In this document: positions 8,089-58,121 of the stretch, piece by piece | Position numbering within the stretch: the first letter of the stretch is position 1 | Layout: every line of letters starts with the position of its first letter | DNA from: Candidatus Woesearchaeota archaeon | GTDB taxonomy: Archaea > Nanobdellota > Nanobdellia > Woesearchaeales > B29-G15 | Direction: 5' to 3' | Length of the DNA: 64,000 nt | NCBI GenBank assembly: GCA_017610005.1 | Contig: JAFCCU010000006.1 | Span: 1 to 64,000 of the forward strand | Position numbers and translations under genes: made by a program | Notes under the pieces: model-generated | Seen by the model: only the letters and a program-made list of their open reading frames with translations | Database searches by the model: none | What the model was told of the DNA's origin: nothing

Positions 8089-8538
8089 ATGGTTAAAACA
8101 ATACTCATATCCGGAAGTCCAAGGAATGGAAAGACTGAATCCATACTAAAAGAAATGGATGGAGAACTAATTCTTCTAAGAAACTTAAAAATCAAACATT
8201 GCACAGGCTGTTTAACTTGTGAGAAAACCCACAAATGTGTAATTCAAGATGATATGCAAGCCCTTTATCCAAAATTAGAAAATGCAGATGTAATTGTTAT
8301 TGGCACACCCAATTACTTTGAAAATGTGCCAGGCATTCTAAAAGATTTCATTGACCGAACATGCCCCCAATCATTTTCCGAGAAATTAAAAGGCAAAAAA
8401 CTTATGCCAATAATTGTTGGAGAAATGGCAATTGAATTTCAAAAACGTGTGACTAAAAATGCCCTTGAATGCTTTGCAAGAGCGCATAATATGATTCTAG
8501 AAGAGGGAAAATACTTCCAGAATACTTTAGACTTCTGA
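8089..8538 (+). CDS. NADPH-dependent FMN reductase / iron-sulfur flavoprotein family
   Basis: A 149-residue flavodoxin-fold protein. ISGSPRNGKTESIL (residues 6-19) is the FMN phosphate loop, CTGCLTCEKTHKC (about 39-51) is a Cys cluster as in iron-sulfur flavoproteins, and GTPNYFENVPGILKDFIDR (about 84-102) is the family flavin-binding block. It probably moves electrons between NAD(P)H, FMN and an unknown partner. The protein is slightly short for the family, and its final codons (TLDF and stop) come from the first unit of a heptamer repeat array, suggesting that the repeat has replaced the original 3' end. Confidence 0.85.
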   Translation: MVKTILISGSPRNGKTESILKEMDGELILLRNLKIKHCTGCLTCEKTHKCVIQDDMQALYPKLENADVIVIGTPNYFENVPGILKDFIDRTCPQSFSEKLKGKKLMPIIVGEMAIEFQKRVTKNALECFARAHNMILEEGKYFQNTLDF

Positions 8539-8568
8539 CTTTAGACTTCTGACTTTAGACTTCTGACT
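8524..8568. repeat. Heptanucleotide array, six units
   Basis: Six tandem 7-base units alternate actttag and acttctg, followed by acta. The array starts inside the last codons of the flavoprotein gene and ends 57 bases before the next start codon. It belongs to the same repeat family as the arrays at 8924, 11344 and 25948 and those inside ribosomal protein genes. Confidence 0.9.
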
Positions 8569-8874: not shown

Positions 8875-8923
8875 TTAAACTTTTTTCTTTCGCTTCTTTT
8901 TCTATATATTTTCTATAATTATA

Positions 8924-9084
8924 CTCCAGACTGCAGACTTCAGACTTCTTACTTCAGACTTCTTACTTCAGACTTCTTACTTCAGACTTCTTACTTCAGA
9001 CTTCTTACTTCAGACTTCAGACTTCAGACTTCTTACTTCAGACTTTAGACTTCTGACTTTAGACTTCTTACTTCAGACTTCAGA
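8924..9084. repeat. Heptanucleotide array, 23 units
   Basis: Twenty-three perfect-length 7-base units, mostly cttcaga alternating with cttctta, with a few ctttaga, cttctga, ctccaga and ctgcaga variants. It fills the gap between two convergent genes and stops three bases from the end of the PUA-protein gene. There are no unique spacers, so it is not a CRISPR array. Alternation of two variants gives a 14-base higher-order period. Confidence 0.95.
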
Positions 9085-9087
9085 CTA

Positions 9088-9525
9088 TTAAAGTCTTCTA
9101 ATCCTTCTCGCTTTTGGCACCAAATTTAGAAGCCTTCCTTCAATTTCTCTGCCACAACCAAAGTAATCATTTTTATGTTTAATTATTACAAATCTTTTTT
9201 CTTGTCCTTTATTATCCAAATCAAGGCCCTGGAGCCACATTCTTACTTCATCATCAGTTAATTCAAGTACGTTTTTTGTTGCTTTTGGCCCAACCATCTG
9301 GCTTCCTTCAATTGATAATTTAAGTTCACCATGAGTTAACCTTCCAAAATATAATCCTTGATTATTAATGCGCATTCCATCTTGATTTAACTCCTGACTT
9401 TCTTTATTTAATAAGAATACTTTCTCGTCTCGTTGCTCAAAGAAATAGTCAAGTTTTGGGCAATATCCAAACTGTGATTCTACAATTTTTTTAATACTTT
9501 TTACTTCTCTTGAAGATAAAAACAT
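9088..9525 (-). CDS. PUA-domain RNA-binding protein
   Basis: A 145-residue protein whose second half is a PUA domain: SQMVGPKATKNVLELTDDEVRMW (split here across residues 76-98), then FVIIKHKNDYFGCGREIEGR and LVPKARRIRRL at the end. This block occurs in archaeal proteins linked to rRNA/tRNA modification and to Nip7-like ribosome biogenesis factors. The first 70 residues form the pre-PUA region. It starts immediately beside the aIF5B stop codon (9525/9526), so it is co-transcribed with the initiation factor. A direct role on the ribosome is an inference from domain and neighbour. Confidence 0.8.
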   Translation of the reverse strand: MFLSSREVKSIKKIVESQFGYCPKLDYFFEQRDEKVFLLNKESQELNQDGMRINNQGLYFGRLTHGELKLSIEGSQMVGPKATKNVLELTDDEVRMWLQGLDLDNKGQEKRFVIIKHKNDYFGCGREIEGRLLNLVPKARRIRRL

Positions 9526-11343: not shown

Positions 11344-11515
11344 AGTCTGGAGTACGGAGTTTGAAGTTTGAAGTCTGAAGTTTGAAGTTTGAAGTTTGAA
11401 GTTTGAAGTCTGAAGTCTGAAGTCTGAAGTTTGAAGTTTGAAGTACGAAGTTTGAAGTACGAAGTTTGAAGTCAGAAGTAAAAATATACCTTATACCCCT
11501 AAACAGTCTGAAGTA
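11344..11515. repeat. Heptanucleotide array, 19 units plus an outlier
   Basis: Nineteen contiguous units at 11344-11476, mainly agtttga with blocks of agtctga and agtacga and single agtctgg, agtacgg and agtcaga. One and a half more units lie at 11505-11515 after a 28-base gap. It occupies most of the 319-base spacer between divergent infB and the gene at 11618. The rest of the spacer holds only A/T-rich promoter-like sequence (for example ttttaaatta near 11589). Confidence 0.95.
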
Positions 11516-24675: not shown

Positions 24676-25337
24676 AAAAAGCATATTTAACAATCGATGA
24701 TTCGCCGTCAACTGGTTTTGAAGAGAAGCTTTCATTTCTTCTTGATAAAAAGATTCCAGCCATTTGGTTTTGTAATGGTTGCAAATTAAAAGAAAGATCA
24801 GTTGTTAATGCAATTAAAACAAATCACATTATTGGAAACCATGGTTTTAGCCACAAACATTTTTCTGAAATGACTTATGATGAAGCAGTAAAAGAAATTC
24901 TTGATACAGATGGATTAATTGAAGCAGCTTACAAAGAAGTATGCGTAAAAAGGCCAATAAAACTGTTTAGATTTCCTTATGGTGATACAGGCGGAGATTT
25001 ACTAACTGAAAGACTTCAAGTTTTCTTAGAAAAAGAAGGCTTTGTTTCTGGTAACTTTGAACACATTACATATGATTGGTGGTTTGAAAGAGTAGATGTT
25101 TTTTGGACCTTTGCTTGCAATGATTGGATCTTTAAAAGTGGGCCAAATGAAGATTTTAAGGATTTAAATGACATATTAAGATTTATTGAAGAACCAAATC
25201 ATGAACTTGGTGGTTCACTTGTAAGGGGAGATTCTAATGAAATAATCTGTCTCCATGACCACGATGCAAACACAGAACAGTTCTTTAAAATTATTGAGAA
25301 GATAATTTCTGTTGGTGTTGAGTTTATTTCTCCATAA
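24672..25337 (+). CDS. NodB-type polysaccharide deacetylase
   Basis: A 221-residue carbohydrate esterase family 4 protein, metal-dependent, removing acetyl groups from amino sugars. Motif 1 is LTIDDSPS (residues 6-13, catalytic and metal Asp pair), motif 2 GNHGFSHKHFS (about 56-66, metal His pair) and motif 3 RFPYGDTG (about 97-104). A late ICLHDHD (about 196-202) matches the LxHD motif. No signal peptide is seen, so it acts inside the cell or on intracellular precursors. The start overlaps the leuS stop as ATGA. The 3' end overlaps the convergent methyltransferase remnant by 14 bases. Confidence 0.85.
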   Translation: MKKAYLTIDDSPSTGFEEKLSFLLDKKIPAIWFCNGCKLKERSVVNAIKTNHIIGNHGFSHKHFSEMTYDEAVKEILDTDGLIEAAYKEVCVKRPIKLFRFPYGDTGGDLLTERLQVFLEKEGFVSGNFEHITYDWWFERVDVFWTFACNDWIFKSGPNEDFKDLNDILRFIEEPNHELGGSLVRGDSNEIICLHDHDANTEQFFKIIEKIISVGVEFISP

Positions 25338-25933
25338 AAAAGTAATTTGTTATATGGGGGATTGAACCAGGTCTTTCCCCTCCAAAATTTATCAATTTTG
25401 CTTCTAAAATTGTAAAATATTCTGAAAATAATTTCTCCAATTCTTCAAATGAAGAATAAAATAGCATGTGCCCCATTCCAGTGGATCTTTCTCCTCTACC
25501 TGGGCCTCCAAATTCCTGACTCTTTTCATTAAAACAAATTGATAAATATTTCCCTCCCTTCTTCAGCATCTTGGAAATATTCTCTACTGCTTTGGCCCTT
25601 AGATCTGGAGGGAGATTATGTAAAAAACCATGACCAAAGATAAAATCAAATTCTCCTATATCTTTTGGATTTAGTATATCCATTACTAAAAAGTTTACTT
25701 CTGAACTCCTTTGCTTGTTCAATAGCCTTATTTGAAAAATCAATCCCTGTTACTTGGAATCCTTGTTCTGCCAAAAAGGTTGAATCAGCTCCAGTTCCAC
25801 AACCAAGCTCTAAAACTCTGCAAGGTTCTATCTTCTTAGAAATTTCAACAATTGACTTACGGGGTCTATCTTTTGACCGGGCATTTAATCCTTTATTATA
25901 GGCCCCCTCAAAATCACTTTGCGAATTATCCAT
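25324..25933 (-). pseudogene. SAM-dependent methyltransferase split by a frameshift
   Basis: Two overlapping frames together give one class I methyltransferase. The first (start 25933) holds VLELGCGTGADSTFLAEQGF and VTGIDFSNKAIEQAKE, i.e. SAM motif I and the acidic strand. The second frame continues with SEVNFLVMDILNPKD, FIFGHGFLHNLP and the C-terminal strands. The junction is near 25697-25712 and needs a +1 shift, equivalent to one surplus base. Read across it, the product would be about 200 residues, a normal length. It is either a real inactivating mutation or a sequence error. A heptamer array lies directly upstream. Confidence 0.8.
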
Positions 25934-25947
25934 CCAAAATCCCCTTA

Positions 25948-26007
25948 ACTTCTAACTTTAGACTTCTAACTTTAGACTTCTAACTTTAGACTTCTAACTT
26001 TAGACTT
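25948..26007. repeat. Heptanucleotide array, eight units
   Basis: Eight units alternate acttcta and actttag, plus a partial unit. The array sits between the 3' end of the SRP RNA (8 bases away) and the start of the methyltransferase remnant. The alternation gives the same 14-base super-period as at 8524. Confidence 0.95.
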
Positions 26008-48621: not shown

Positions 48622-49158
48622 TTATTTTGTCTCTTTAGGAGTCGCCTCCCCATCTGAGTCTGGAGTCTTGAGTCTGGAGTCTGGAGAAATTTTCTCTTCT
48701 GACTTCTGACTTTTAACTTCTGACTTAATATTTGGTTGAACAATCTCTCCACCTGCAGATTCAATTTTTTCTTTTGCACGTGTTGAGACATACTCAACTT
48801 TGATTACATATTTTTTTGTAGGATTTCCAGTTCCAAGCAATTTGTCAAAACCTTCCTTGGTTAAATCAATTTCAACTTTATCTTTAGTTACTTTTGCGTC
48901 AAATCTATCTAAATAACTTTCAATAAAGGAGATGTTTATTGCTTCAACATTTGCTGTGTTATTTCTATTAAATCCGTGTTTTCCAAAATAAGAGGTATCA
49001 GCCCAGATACTTGGTTTTTTAGTATCTGCACGCTTACCAGTTCCAGCATTACCAACTCCTCCCCTATGGCCTGCACCCCTATTCTTCTTCATGCTGCCAT
49101 AGCCATGAGTCTTACTGCCTCTAAATCTACCGGCTTTCTTACGCTTATGAGTATTCAT
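48622..49158 (-). CDS. rpl15: Ribosomal protein L15 (uL15) with repeat-encoded tail
   Basis: A 178-residue large-subunit protein. The N-terminal KAGRFRGSKTHGYGS and GAGHRGGVGNAGTGKR blocks are characteristic. The core ends near residue 145. The remaining 33 residues (SEVKSQKSEEKISPDSRLK and on) are encoded by heptamer repeats at 48654-48726 and are absent from standard L15, so they look like an acquired disordered tail. The start is one base from the L30 stop. Confidence 0.95.
   Translation of the reverse strand: MNTHKRKKAGRFRGSKTHGYGSMKKNRGAGHRGGVGNAGTGKRADTKKPSIWADTSYFGKHGFNRNNTANVEAINISFIESYLDRFDAKVTKDKVEIDLTKEGFDKLLGTGNPTKKYVIKVEYVSTRAKEKIESAGGEIVQPNIKSEVKSQKSEEKISPDSRLKTPDSDGEATPKETK
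48654..48726. repeat. Heptamer repeats inside rpl15
   Basis: Two sub-arrays. At 48654-48686 units ctgagtc, tggagtc, ttgagtc, tggagtc; at 48697-48726 units cttctga, cttctga, cttttaa, cttctga. They use two sequence variants of the same family and encode the L15 tail. Confidence 0.85.
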
Positions 49159-49596
49159 TTAAAGCATCCTCTCAATTAACTTTTGAATCTTTTCTTTTCT
49201 GTCACCTAATACTCCTCCTTGCACAAAAGTCTTCTTAATACCTTTTCTTTCAAATCCCCCAATTGGTGGATTTAAGTGGAATATTGGTTTGTATTTTTGT
49301 TTGTTAAACACAATGTGATTTTGATAATTTAATTTCCCCCGTGAATCATGGGTTCTTGCTTTAAACTCTTTACCTCTTTTTTTAATAATTTCGCCTAAAA
49401 ATTCTTCTGAGATTTCTCCAAAAGTGGTGTAATCTTTAACAACAGTTAATAATCCTCTTAGTTCAGGAGTGGCCTTAAACACAGCAAGACTCATTTTTTT
49501 AATTAATCTAAGCCTCTTTAAAGTACCTTTAACTTCAGGTCCTGCTTGAATTGCGCTTCTAACCTTTAAAACTGCGAAATATTTATTGCTTGTCAT
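49159..49596 (-). CDS. rpl30: Ribosomal protein L30 (uL30)
   Basis: A 145-residue archaeal-length large-subunit protein. FAVLKVRSAIQAGPEVKGTL at the start, a middle DYTTFGEIS, then FHLNPPIGGFERKGIKK near residue 110 match the family. It overlaps the S5 stop by 14 bases and ends one base before L15. No repeat-derived tail is present. Confidence 0.94.
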   Translation of the reverse strand: MTSNKYFAVLKVRSAIQAGPEVKGTLKRLRLIKKMSLAVFKATPELRGLLTVVKDYTTFGEISEEFLGEIIKKRGKEFKARTHDSRGKLNYQNHIVFNKQKYKPIFHLNPPIGGFERKGIKKTFVQGGVLGDRKEKIQKLIERML

Positions 49597-50635
49597 TTAA
49601 TGCACCATCAATGATTTTTAATTCAGTTTTTGCTGGAAGTTTTATCTCCATTAATTGTTTTAATGCTTCAAAACATGCAGTAACTAAATTGGATTTAGTT
49701 TTAGTTGATCCAAACGTTTGAGACCACACATCTTTGATTCCAGCAAGTTTTAATAATTTTTGACATTCTTTTTCAACACAAAGGCCAGTTCCCTTAGGTG
49801 CGGGGAGCAATGTAATCCTAACTGATCCACACTTTCCAGTAACCCTAAATGGAATTGAATGATAAGTGCCGCATCCACAAGCCCAAGAACCGCAACTTCT
49901 TCTGATTTTAATTAATCTAAGCTTTGCATTTCTAATAGCTTTATCTCTTGCAGGTACTGTTTCTTTACTGCCTGCCATTCCAAGTCCAACATAACCATCT
50001 TTATTTCCAACAACGGCTAATGTTGTAAAGCTTGGAACATTACCTTCAGCAGTTTTCTTTTGAGTTTGTTTGAAAATTCTTCTTTGACCGCCACCAAATT
50101 TACCCTTTGCTTGACCTATAAGCATTAAGTCTGACTCAATATTTGGTAAAAGTAAATCAACAATTTCTGGTTCTAAAACTTTTTTTCCAAAAGATAACGC
50201 TTCACTCATGTTAGTAACATCGCCTGATCTAACAGCACGTCCTAACTCAGTTCTTGGTTTCCAAGAATCTAATTTATCTTTTTCAGCTTGCGCTCTTGCA
50301 GTAAGTCTAGTCTCAACAACCTTAGCAGGTTTTGCTTCATCAGTTTTTTCTTCTTTTACTGCTTCTGGGCTTTGAGCCTTGGGCTTTGAGCCTTGAACTT
50401 CTTCTTTAGCAACTTCTGCCTTCTTTTCAGCAGGCTTCTCTACCTTTACTCCTTCTTTTACTACTTCTTTTACTACTTCTTTTACTTCTGACTTCTGACT
50501 TTGGACTTCAGACTGTTCAACTTCTTCTTTTACTTCTGACTTCTGACTTTGGACTTCAGACTGTTTAACTTCTTCTTTTACTTCTGACTTCTGACTTTGG
50601 ACTTCAGACTGTTTAGTTTGGTTTTCTTTCTTCAT
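49583..50635 (-). CDS. rps5: Ribosomal protein S5 (uS5) with long N-terminal extension
   Basis: A 350-residue small-subunit protein. The core starts near residue 126 (WKPRTELGRAV), with the S5 domain blocks FGGGQRRIFKQTQKKT, GNKDGYVGLGMAGSKE and FRVTGKCGSVRITLLPAP. The first 120 residues are charged and low-complexity: three copies of a 16-residue unit with SEVQSQKSEVKEEV, then KVEKPAEKKAEVAKEE and QGSKPKAQSPEAV. The extension is encoded by heptamer repeats and is not part of normal S5 (about 210-230 residues). The start overlaps the L18 stop as ATGA. Confidence 0.95.
   Translation of the reverse strand: MKKENQTKQSEVQSQKSEVKEEVKQSEVQSQKSEVKEEVEQSEVQSQKSEVKEVVKEVVKEGVKVEKPAEKKAEVAKEEVQGSKPKAQSPEAVKEEKTDEAKPAKVVETRLTARAQAEKDKLDSWKPRTELGRAVRSGDVTNMSEALSFGKKVLEPEIVDLLLPNIESDLMLIGQAKGKFGGGQRRIFKQTQKKTAEGNVPSFTTLAVVGNKDGYVGLGMAGSKETVPARDKAIRNAKLRLIKIRRSCGSWACGCGTYHSIPFRVTGKCGSVRITLLPAPKGTGLCVEKECQKLLKLAGIKDVWSQTFGSTKTKSNLVTACFEALKQLMEIKLPAKTELKIIDGALNDKQ
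50367..50394. repeat. Heptamer pair repeats (gggcttt/gagcctt) inside rps5
   Basis: Two copies of a 14-base unit made of gggcttt and gagcctt. They encode QGSKPKAQSP in the S5 extension. The sequence is a further variant of the 7-base repeat style. Confidence 0.75.
50484..50614. repeat. Three 48-base repeats made of heptamers inside rps5
   Basis: Copies start at 50484, 50532 and 50580. Each has acttctg, acttctg, actttgg, acttcag, actg and a 13-base linker. The period of 48 keeps the reading frame, giving three 16-residue protein units. Confidence 0.95.
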
Positions 50636-55935: not shown

Positions 55936-56141
55936 CCTTTTTGACTAACCTCCTTTTGATTTTTTACAGTAATTATCCGCGCAATAGTACGCTTGATTTG
56001 TTTAATTCTCCCTGGTTTTTCTGGGAGAGTACGAGTAGCAACTTGACTTTGTAATTTCATTAACTCTTTTTTCAAATCTACCATGCGTGAATCAAGTTCT
56101 TTAACACTTAAATTCTTAACTGAATTAAATGACTTACTCAT
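55932..56141 (-). CDS. rpl29: Ribosomal protein L29 (uL29)
   Basis: A 69-residue helical-hairpin large-subunit protein near the exit tunnel. VKELDSRMVDLKKELMKLQSQ and GRIKQIKRTIARIITVKNQKE are the two helices (each split). It overlaps the S3 stop by ATGA. Confidence 0.93.
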   Translation of the reverse strand: MSKSFNSVKNLSVKELDSRMVDLKKELMKLQSQVATRTLPEKPGRIKQIKRTIARIITVKNQKEVSQKG

Positions 56142-56896
56142 TTCTCAGCCACCTTTTCAATTTCGGGTTTTGAGTCTTCAGTTGTCTCTTCTTTCTTCTC
56201 TTTTTCTTCAACAACTTCTTTCTTTTCTACTTTTTCTTCAACCTTTACTTCTTCTTTTACTTCAGACTTTTGACTTTTGACTTCAGACTCTTTAGCTTCT
56301 TCTTCAATAGGTATAATTGAATCAGGTAAAATTACACCAGGAGGCATGATTTTTACAACAACGCCTACAACTCCTGACTTTAGCTTTGCAACCTTATATG
56401 AAATATCTACATTTTCAATTGCTGGTTCTCCACATTTTTTCAAATAACCTCTACTTACTCTCCATACTCTAGCTCTTGAACTTGGTACTTTCCCTGAAAT
56501 TAATATTTCAATACCTAATGCCCCTGCATTAAGCACATCTTCAGCAGATCTATGGATAATTGATTTAAATTTAGCTGAACCATATCTTTCTAATGAAGTT
56601 GAAATCCTTTCTGCAACAATATTTGCATCCAAATTTGGATTAAGTACTTCTGAAATCTCAATTTGTGGGTTTTCCAAATTAAACTTATTCTTCAAAGCTT
56701 CAGTTAAATCCTTAATATTCTTGCCCGATCTTCCTACAACCATTCCTGGTCTTGAGGAGTGAATAATGATTTTTTCACCAAGAGGTGTTCTTTTTACAAC
56801 TGCGCCTGAAAATCCAGCACCATTTAGGCTAGCTTCTATAAACTCCCTAATTTGGTGTTCTTTGATTTGCCTTGACACAATTTCTCGTTCTATCAT
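56138..56896 (-). CDS. rps3: Ribosomal protein S3 (uS3) with repeat-encoded tail
   Basis: A 252-residue small-subunit protein at the mRNA entry. The KH domain has IHSSRPGMVVGRSGKNIKDL (residues 45-64), and the C-terminal S3 domain has GVVVKIMPPGVILPD. The core ends near residue 197. The last 55 residues are EEAKESEVKSQKSEVKEEV and more Lys/Glu, encoded in part by a heptamer segment nearly identical to one in the former L22 tail (56214-56304 against 57050-57154). GAGG at 56902-56905 (reverse strand) precedes its ATG. Confidence 0.95.
   Translation of the reverse strand: MIEREIVSRQIKEHQIREFIEASLNGAGFSGAVVKRTPLGEKIIIHSSRPGMVVGRSGKNIKDLTEALKNKFNLENPQIEISEVLNPNLDANIVAERISTSLERYGSAKFKSIIHRSAEDVLNAGALGIEILISGKVPSSRARVWRVSRGYLKKCGEPAIENVDISYKVAKLKSGVVGVVVKIMPPGVILPDSIIPIEEEAKESEVKSQKSEVKEEVKVEEKVEKKEVVEEKEKKEETTEDSKPEIEKVAEK
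56214..56304. repeat. Heptamer module in rps3 tail
   Basis: Contains one copy of the 48-base unit (acttcag, actttt, gactttt, gacttcag, actctttagcttcttctt) at 56259-56304 plus a flanking Lys/Glu codon block. It matches the segment at 57050-57154 with few differences. Confidence 0.85.
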
Positions 56897-57205
56897 TTTT
56901 CCTCGGTCTTCTTTGAGTTTGGAGTTTGGAGTTTGGAATCTGGAGTACTTTTTTCTCCGGACTGTTGACTGTTGACTGTTGACTCTTTTAATTCTTCTTT
57001 TACAGCTGCCTTTTCAACCTTTGCTTCTTTTACAACTTCTTTCTTTACTTCTTCCTTCTTTTCTACTTTTTCTTCAACTTTTACTTCTTCTTTTACTTCT
57101 TCTTTTACTTCAGACTTTTGACTTTTGACTTCAGACTCTTTAGCTTCTTCTTTTACTTCAGACTTTTGACTTTTGACTTCAGACTCTTTAGCTTCTTCTT
57201 TTACT
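56893..57205 (-). pseudogene. Severed C-terminal tail of L22
   Basis: Reading leftward in the L22 frame with the 4-base insertion near 57206-57211 removed, the sequence is open for about 104 codons with no stop and ends at a TGA at 56893-56895. That TGA overlaps the ATG of S3 (56894-56896) as ATGA, the junction type seen at other genes of this operon. The tail would be Lys/Glu/Val-rich with SEVKSQKSEVKEEAKE units. It fills the only gap of 309 bases in the operon. A recent truncation of L22 is inferred. Confidence 0.85.
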
Positions 57206-57254
57206 TCAGTCAGACTTTTGACTTTTGACTTCAGACTCTTTAGCTTCTTCTTTT
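57107..57254. repeat. Three 48-base repeats, one with a 4-base duplication, in rpl22 region
   Basis: Copies start at 57107, 57155 and 57203. Copies 1 and 2 are 48 bases; copy 3 is 52 because tcag is doubled at 57206-57213. That doubling creates the TGA ending the present L22. Confidence 0.95.
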
Positions 57255-57739
57255 ACAACTTTTTCTTTTTTTACTGCGGACTGCGGACTGCGGACTGCGG
57301 ACTTTTTCACTTCTCCTTCAACAACAACAATTTCAACATGAGTTCTCTTTGTTTGTCTTCTTTTCTGTCTCCCATATCTCATTGGCCTTGAAGCCTGTTG
57401 AGGCACAATTGATGCAATAACTAAACCATCGGTCAATAAACCCTTATCTGAAGCATTTGATTCAACGGATTTTAGTGTTTCCAAAATAAATGTGCATGCT
57501 TTAACTGGATAACGACCTGCAGCCATTCCAGTTTTATGCCCCATATCTTTGTTAAATCTCTTAAATGGGACTGCTGCTTTCTTTTTAATAACTGATTCTA
57601 AAAATGCTTTAGCCCACTCAACATTTCTCCCTCTAAGAACCTTACAAATATTAATTGAGTGCTTAGTTGAAACCGGTAGGTTTAAACTAACAGCTCGTGC
57701 ACTGTTCTCTATTTGTTTTGTTGTATATTGGTAAGTCAT
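57206..57739 (-). CDS. rpl22: Ribosomal protein L22 (uL22), tail truncated by frameshift
   Basis: A 177-residue large-subunit protein lining the exit tunnel. ARAVSLNLPVSTKHSINICK (residues 14-33), then KRFNKDMGHKTGMAAGRYPVK and GRQKRRQTKRTHVEIVVVEG are conserved, and the core ends near residue 141. The added tail has SAVRSPQSAV, encoded by gcggact heptamers, then ESEVKSQKSD where it stops. A 4-base duplication in the repeat caused the early stop; about 104 more codons of tail remain open downstream. The core is intact, so function should be retained. Confidence 0.95.
   Translation of the reverse strand: MTYQYTTKQIENSARAVSLNLPVSTKHSINICKVLRGRNVEWAKAFLESVIKKKAAVPFKRFNKDMGHKTGMAAGRYPVKACTFILETLKSVESNASDKGLLTDGLVIASIVPQQASRPMRYGRQKRRQTKRTHVEIVVVEGEVKKSAVRSPQSAVKKEKVVKEEAKESEVKSQKSD
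57274..57304. repeat. Four ctgcgga heptamers inside rpl22
   Basis: Four identical 7-base units ctgcgga plus ctt. Read in the coding strand they give VRSPQSAV. A GC-rich sequence variant of the family, uniform within the array. Confidence 0.9.
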
Positions 57740-57740
57740 C

Positions 57741-58121
57741 TTATCTCACTGATAATGCTGAACTACTCCTTGTTGCCCCAATACCTGGGGCATGGTGTTC
57801 AACATATTTTCTTGTTAGGGAAAACTCTCCTAAATAATGTCCAACCATCTCAGGTTGGATAATTACGTTTACATAAGTTTTACCATTGTGAATTTGAATT
57901 CTTCTGCCAACCATTAATGGAAGTACAATCATATCTCTACAATGGGTTTTTGGTGCTTCTTTCTTTTCAAGTGCTTTTAAAAATTTCTTCTGAGCTTCAG
58001 TTAATCCCCTAATCAGGGTTCTTCTTTGTCTTGCAGGAAGTAAAACTGCAAACTCATTGATACTTAGAGTCTTTAACTCTTCGATGCTTTTTCCCCGATA
58101 TTTAAATTCTTTAAGTACCAT
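57741..58121 (-). CDS. rps19: Ribosomal protein S19 (uS19)
   Basis: A 126-residue small-subunit head protein. KTHCRDMIVLPLMVGRRIQIH (split, from residue 57), then IIQPEMVGHYLGEFSLTRK and HHAPGIGATRSS at the end match archaeal S19. It is one base from the L22 start. No extension. Confidence 0.95.
   Translation of the reverse strand: MVLKEFKYRGKSIEELKTLSINEFAVLLPARQRRTLIRGLTEAQKKFLKALEKKEAPKTHCRDMIVLPLMVGRRIQIHNGKTYVNVIIQPEMVGHYLGEFSLTRKYVEHHAPGIGATRSSSALSVR

Follow-up and report, generated by a model that had tools for sequence, protein, structure and literature searches.

The window, 64,000 nt of DNA in all, is contig C16 of a draft assembly of 62 contigs and 1.58 Mb (92% complete), and its host chromosome is that of a Woesearchaeales-like archaeon. 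In a genome contig scan, which returned distant relatives only, assemblies of Candidatus Woesearchaeota and Nanoarchaeota were among the closest named relatives having the uL22 core. The minus strand carries the S10/spc operon, in which uL22 occupies its S10 operon position between S19 (57741-58121) and S3 (56138-56896). From L3 to SecY, all intergene distances are at most 37 nt (-4 in 10 of 23), except that between uL22 and S3, which is 309 nt; an earlier reading made without databases (hereafter the sequence-only reading) had rightly singled this out as the sole large gap in the operon. The relevant features are the following.

57206-57739, minus strand: uL22 (rpl22), 177 aa in the assembled ORF, with a complete conserved domain (ORF list, Pfam PF00237 and PDB alignment).
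56138-56896, minus strand: uS3 ORF, 252 aa, with GAGG four bases 5' of its ATG and a tail bearing the same heptamer module as uL22.
57206-57213, minus strand: tandem CTGA duplication (TCAGTCAG on the plus strand), creating an in-frame TGA at 57208-57206.
57092-57256, minus strand: three 48-nt units in tandem, each 16 codons long (KEEAKESEVKSQKSEV) and made up of five AGT-heptamers plus 13 nt (TRF, exact repeats).
56893-57204, minus strand: severed tail, which in the restored frame holds 103 codons and then a TGA that overlaps S3 as ATGA.
57269-57303, minus strand: AGTCCGC heptamer array in the still-translated part of the uL22 tail.
56943-56984, minus strand: AGTCAAC heptamer array in the severed tail.
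56916-56950, plus strand: AGTTTGG heptamer array in the opposite orientation, at the end of the severed tail.
56244-56304, minus strand: 61 bp of the S3 tail that recur unchanged, and in the same reading frame, at 57092-57152 in the severed uL22 tail.
49583-50635, minus strand: uS5, whose N-terminal extension consists of three 48-nt heptamer units.
48622-49158, minus strand: uL15, with a C-terminal tail derived from heptamers.

Direct reading of TCAGTCAG confirms that tcag is doubled at 57206-57213, as had been noticed from the letters, and the uL22 ORF ends after 177 aa at the resulting TGA (57208-57206). The duplication lies within the 48-bp array at 57092-57256 (3.4 copies with 95% matches by TRF), in which the first unit on the coding strand is AAAAGTCTGACTGAAGTAAAAG and the next two are AAAAGTCTGAAGTAAAAG. 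The sequence-only reading placed the doubling in the third copy, which holds along the plus strand, but in the direction of translation the affected unit is the first. When four bases are skipped, uL22 extends to approximately 280 aa with zero internal stops, so the predicted reopening of about 104 codons stands; the triplets begin at 57204 (57207 with the junction codon), however, and not at 57205. The restored frame closes at a TGA (56895-56893) that overlaps the S3 ATG (56896-56894) as ATGA, whereas the two other frames across the severed stretch contain 8 and 10 stops, and any of three frames was open in 14 of 2000 dinucleotide shuffles. Among other genes ending in arrays in a 412-kb sample, no comparable severed open frame was found, the next being 38 codons versus 104. 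Reinitiation within the severed tail was considered as well and is ruled out by the absence of ATG, GTG and TTG from its frame.

Programmed +1 frameshifting, or read-through of the TGA, would still yield a long uL22 from the sequence as assembled, and a +1 shift at GAC-TGA does restore the frame exactly, with one residue added. To our knowledge, GAC-TGA is not among the known slippery sites. Recoding is moreover opposed by the third frame, which closes within one codon, by the relatives, none of which needs recoding at the uL22-S3 junction, and by neighbouring genes such as S3, which use TGA as an ordinary stop, and we consider it highly improbable.

The layout of the junction in relatives provides the reference for the ancestral state. 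Of 60 genomes searched, 58 had uL22, the window's own included, and 30 loci were read, one being the window itself; 27 of the other 29 were scored by script and the remaining two (L018 and L029) by reading. The uL22 stop and S3 start are at most 2 nt apart or overlap in 29/29 relatives, with distances from +2 to -17 (commonest -4) in the 27 scripted loci. At L018, where the S3 frame runs past the locus edge, the MIER start overlaps the end of a 144-residue tail as ATGA, and at L029 the overlap between the uL22 stop and the MIER start of S3 is 8. The window alone is gapped among the loci read, and the ordinary layout is therefore the layout before the lesion. The relatives, contiguous throughout, thus support the earlier proposal that the TGA meeting the S3 start as ATGA preserves an old gene arrangement. 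Their uL22 tails range from about 6 to 144 residues and are K/E/P/A-rich, variable and not conserved; the 177-aa uL22 falls inside the length range of relatives. The 79-residue tail of congener G002 is unrelated in sequence to that of the window, so the form of this tail before the lesion has no counterpart seen in another genome, and the draft of congener G001 is missing uL22. A search of open-access papers for archaeal uL22 extensions gave no match.

The conserved part of the protein is intact. Pfam PF00237 matches residues 17-139 of uL22 over profile positions 2-103 of 104 (51 bits), and archaeal uL22 PDB chains align along their whole length with query residues ~3-145 and end there (for 4v6u_BS, query 9-141 against chain residues 13-152 of 155). 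Because both kinds of match end before the tail, the tail alone is lost, and its loss should be tolerable given that relatives' tails vary widely and the uL22 domain is complete. The coupling between uL22 and S3 has probably been lost too, and separate initiation of S3 would be possible because GAGG sits four bases before its ATG.

The severed 48-nt copies equal the translated copy except for the four bases, with zero substitutions. As the severed part also matches the live S3 tail over 61 identical bases, the lesion either arose very recently or is a mistake of assembly or consensus. This in-frame match bears out the earlier claim that a four-base duplication cut a formerly longer uL22 and left its tail readable; the word fossil, however, makes that tail too old, as the severed repeat copies are free of substitutions. 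Under the error reading, the real uL22 is long, and the four extra bases arose where contig ends sharing CTGA were joined untrimmed or where strain variants were mixed. It shares its anatomy with the explanation favoured below, differing solely on whether the cell carries the bases, and we put its chances at somewhat below even. The duplication falls within a run of three nearly identical 48-bp copies, where exact repeats measure 47-66 bp, the assembly is a 62-contig draft in which two sampled contigs (C9 and C15) start less than ~100 bp from heptamer arrays, the severed frame lacks decay, and a 4-base duplication matches neither the 7-bp nor the 48-bp step. However, reads usually exceed the 47-66 bp of these exact repeats, the other ribosomal protein genes between L3 and SecY are all open and tightly packed, and a second frame-split gene in the window, away from arrays, suggests that real lesions may exist (unless it is another error). 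The four extra bases may be present in the cell or only in the assembly.

A phase-variable switch, raised by the sequence-only reading, is not borne out. Slippage within the array would toggle the long tail together with uL22-S3 coupling, and tandem repeats do lie within the coding sequence, where changes in the number of 7-bp units alter the frame. The insert, however, is 4 bases and not 7 or 48, the unit lengths of coding arrays are multiples of three, 36 nt in an eS1-like gene and 48 nt in both uL22 and uS5, which avoids switching, and a genome-wide pattern search found the CTGA junction AGTCTGACTGAAGT at this one place only. In bacterial phase-variable tetranucleotide tracts, a 4-bp step shifts the frame within many copies. 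The uL22 case is like these in its 4-bp frame change but unlike them in that CTGA is present only twice, so that the indel is not the repeat unit of a many-copy tract. We judge a switch very unlikely.

Collectively, these observations very probably reflect a long-tailed uL22 that was cut by a CTGA duplication, with the core spared and the tail dispensable. The ancestral protein would have had a long disordered C-terminal tail reaching S3 with a 4-base stop/start overlap, encoded mostly by AGTNNNN repeats of 7 bp arranged in 48-nt blocks, which keep the frame. When CTGA was doubled in tandem where the first of these blocks ends, the frame would have shifted by one and the TGA of an AGTCTGA heptamer would have come into frame, terminating translation at residue 177. 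The ribosomal core would remain untouched, the loss being about 104 residues of a dispensable, highly variable tail, while the S3 start, formerly inside the uL22 stop, would now depend on a GAGG of its own, 309 nt further downstream. The change itself, probably recent and most likely non-adaptive, may be a single indel event, a variant of one strain, or a mistake in assembly or consensus calling.

The repeats belong to a genome-wide family. Five AGT triplets at 7-base spacing (AGTNNNN x5) give 988 matches in the window's genome, compared with 0 in two congeners and 0-1 in 57 further relatives; in a phylum-wide sample, at least one match is present in 15 of 371 genomes, the window's included, with a maximum of 71 among the others. 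The main units are AGTCTGA, AGTTAGA, AGTAAGA and AGTCAGA, and the many dispersed arrays of 7-bp period in one genome have the character of an STRR-like heptanucleotide family. A 412-kb sample contains 83 arrays, of which 34 lie in ORFs in gene orientation, 7 lie in the opposite orientation, 36 are intergenic and 6 overlap partly; nine arrays outside genes start no more than 9 nt from a same-strand gene 3' end. Coding arrays occur in uL22, uS3, uS5 (N-terminal), uL15, a KOW/L14e-like protein, an S3Ae/eS1-like protein (named from its sequence alone) and others. The codon phase is the same at the start of 30 of 33 coding arrays, giving SEVxSxKSE, in 14 genes in which arrays of the same gene are not independent. 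Units that end in a stop triplet make up 213 of 432 in intergenic arrays versus 0 of 41 in the phase that would stop translation in coding arrays; coding arrays thus differ from raw intergenic ones, although the 0 of 41 follows from the open frame.

This survey bears on whether 57205-56897 was ever coding. The segment might be an intergenic heptamer array behind a uL22 that always ended at its present stop, as befits the intergenic share of the sampled arrays and the location of some directly at gene 3' ends. The contrast in stop-triplet units argues against this, as do the 104-codon open frame ending precisely at the ATGA junction and the in-frame match to the live S3 tail, and the contiguous relatives contradict it. 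We regard this as the least credible of the readings.

Several observations on the arrays stand beside these counts. Genomes G185, G230, G321 and G086 have 13-71 matches with the same spacing, with units far more mixed around the fixed AGT. Arrays reach 44 units (window examples at 8919-9086, 11344-11483 and 25944-26006), and long gene-oriented arrays lie at or just after stop codons at L074 11280, L084 17301, L091 8581 and window position 9090. In the tail of the S3Ae/eS1-like ribosomal protein (L086 5488-6423), a 12-residue sequence (KSEVGSPKSEEK) recurs about eight times, and the 36 nt that encode each copy comprise four heptamers and 8 further nt.

Repeats within ORFs of Borg extrachromosomal elements have units divisible by three and form disordered regions (PMC9879509). 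The present arrays resemble those amino-acid tandem repeats in being archaeal, genome-specific, recent and located in disordered protein regions, and their units within ORFs are likewise divisible by three (48 nt in uL22/uS5 and 36 nt in the eS1-like gene, on a basic unit of 7 nt). Unlike Borg repeats, they have a 7-bp base unit, form one heptamer family across many genes and affect ribosomal proteins, and they lie in a chromosomal ribosomal protein operon instead of on a Borg element. Among heptanucleotide repeats, TAACTGA is known from Beggiatoaceae and Cyanobacteria, and in Beggiatoaceae it is found in intergenic DNA, where ORFs end and within operons for ribosomal proteins (PMC4679880); GGGAATC-type heptamers occur in Xanthomonas and Nostoc (PMC4692102). 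The window's family is similar to these in having 7-bp units in numerous short arrays, most of which avoid domains or sit at the ends of genes (PMC4679880, PMC4692102). Shared too are forward repeats bearing stops in all frames and the presence of some repeats in ribosomal protein operons. The family described here differs in that it has an AGTNNNN unit, distinct from TAACTGA and GGGAATC, occurs in an archaeon and includes many open arrays in a preferred reading phase inside protein tails. A search of the open-access literature found no paper describing an AGTNNNN ribosomal-tail case.

The heptamer family is of more interest than the uL22 cut, which is itself of modest interest. Alone, the lesion matters little, removing a variable tail and leaving the ribosomal core; if real, it would be a natural test of the need for a long tail and for the S3 stop/start overlap. 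The larger pattern is one of recent, genome-specific short tandem repeats becoming ribosomal protein tails with the frame kept, and because repeats turn into tails recently and in one genome, it would allow direct study of how low-complexity tails originate. A tentative, rather doubtful extension is that AGTNNNN heptamers recently exploded in one lineage as raw material for disordered tails, with the SEVxSxKSE module copied in one phase among ribosomal and other proteins, and that indels of the uL22 type are the cost, varying tail length and uL22-S3 coupling between strains.

Two further genes of the window appear altered. A methyltransferase gene (25324-25743 and upstream to ~26000, minus strand) is split over two frames, its N-terminal part matching Methyltransf_25 positions 1-40 and the listed ORF positions 37-97; the break lies at about 25720, downstream of the array at 25944-26006, and residues seem to be missing, so a deletion is possible. 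An FMN reductase-like ORF (8089-8538) takes its final codons and its stop from a reverse-orientation array at 8520-8568, which seems to have replaced the end of that gene.
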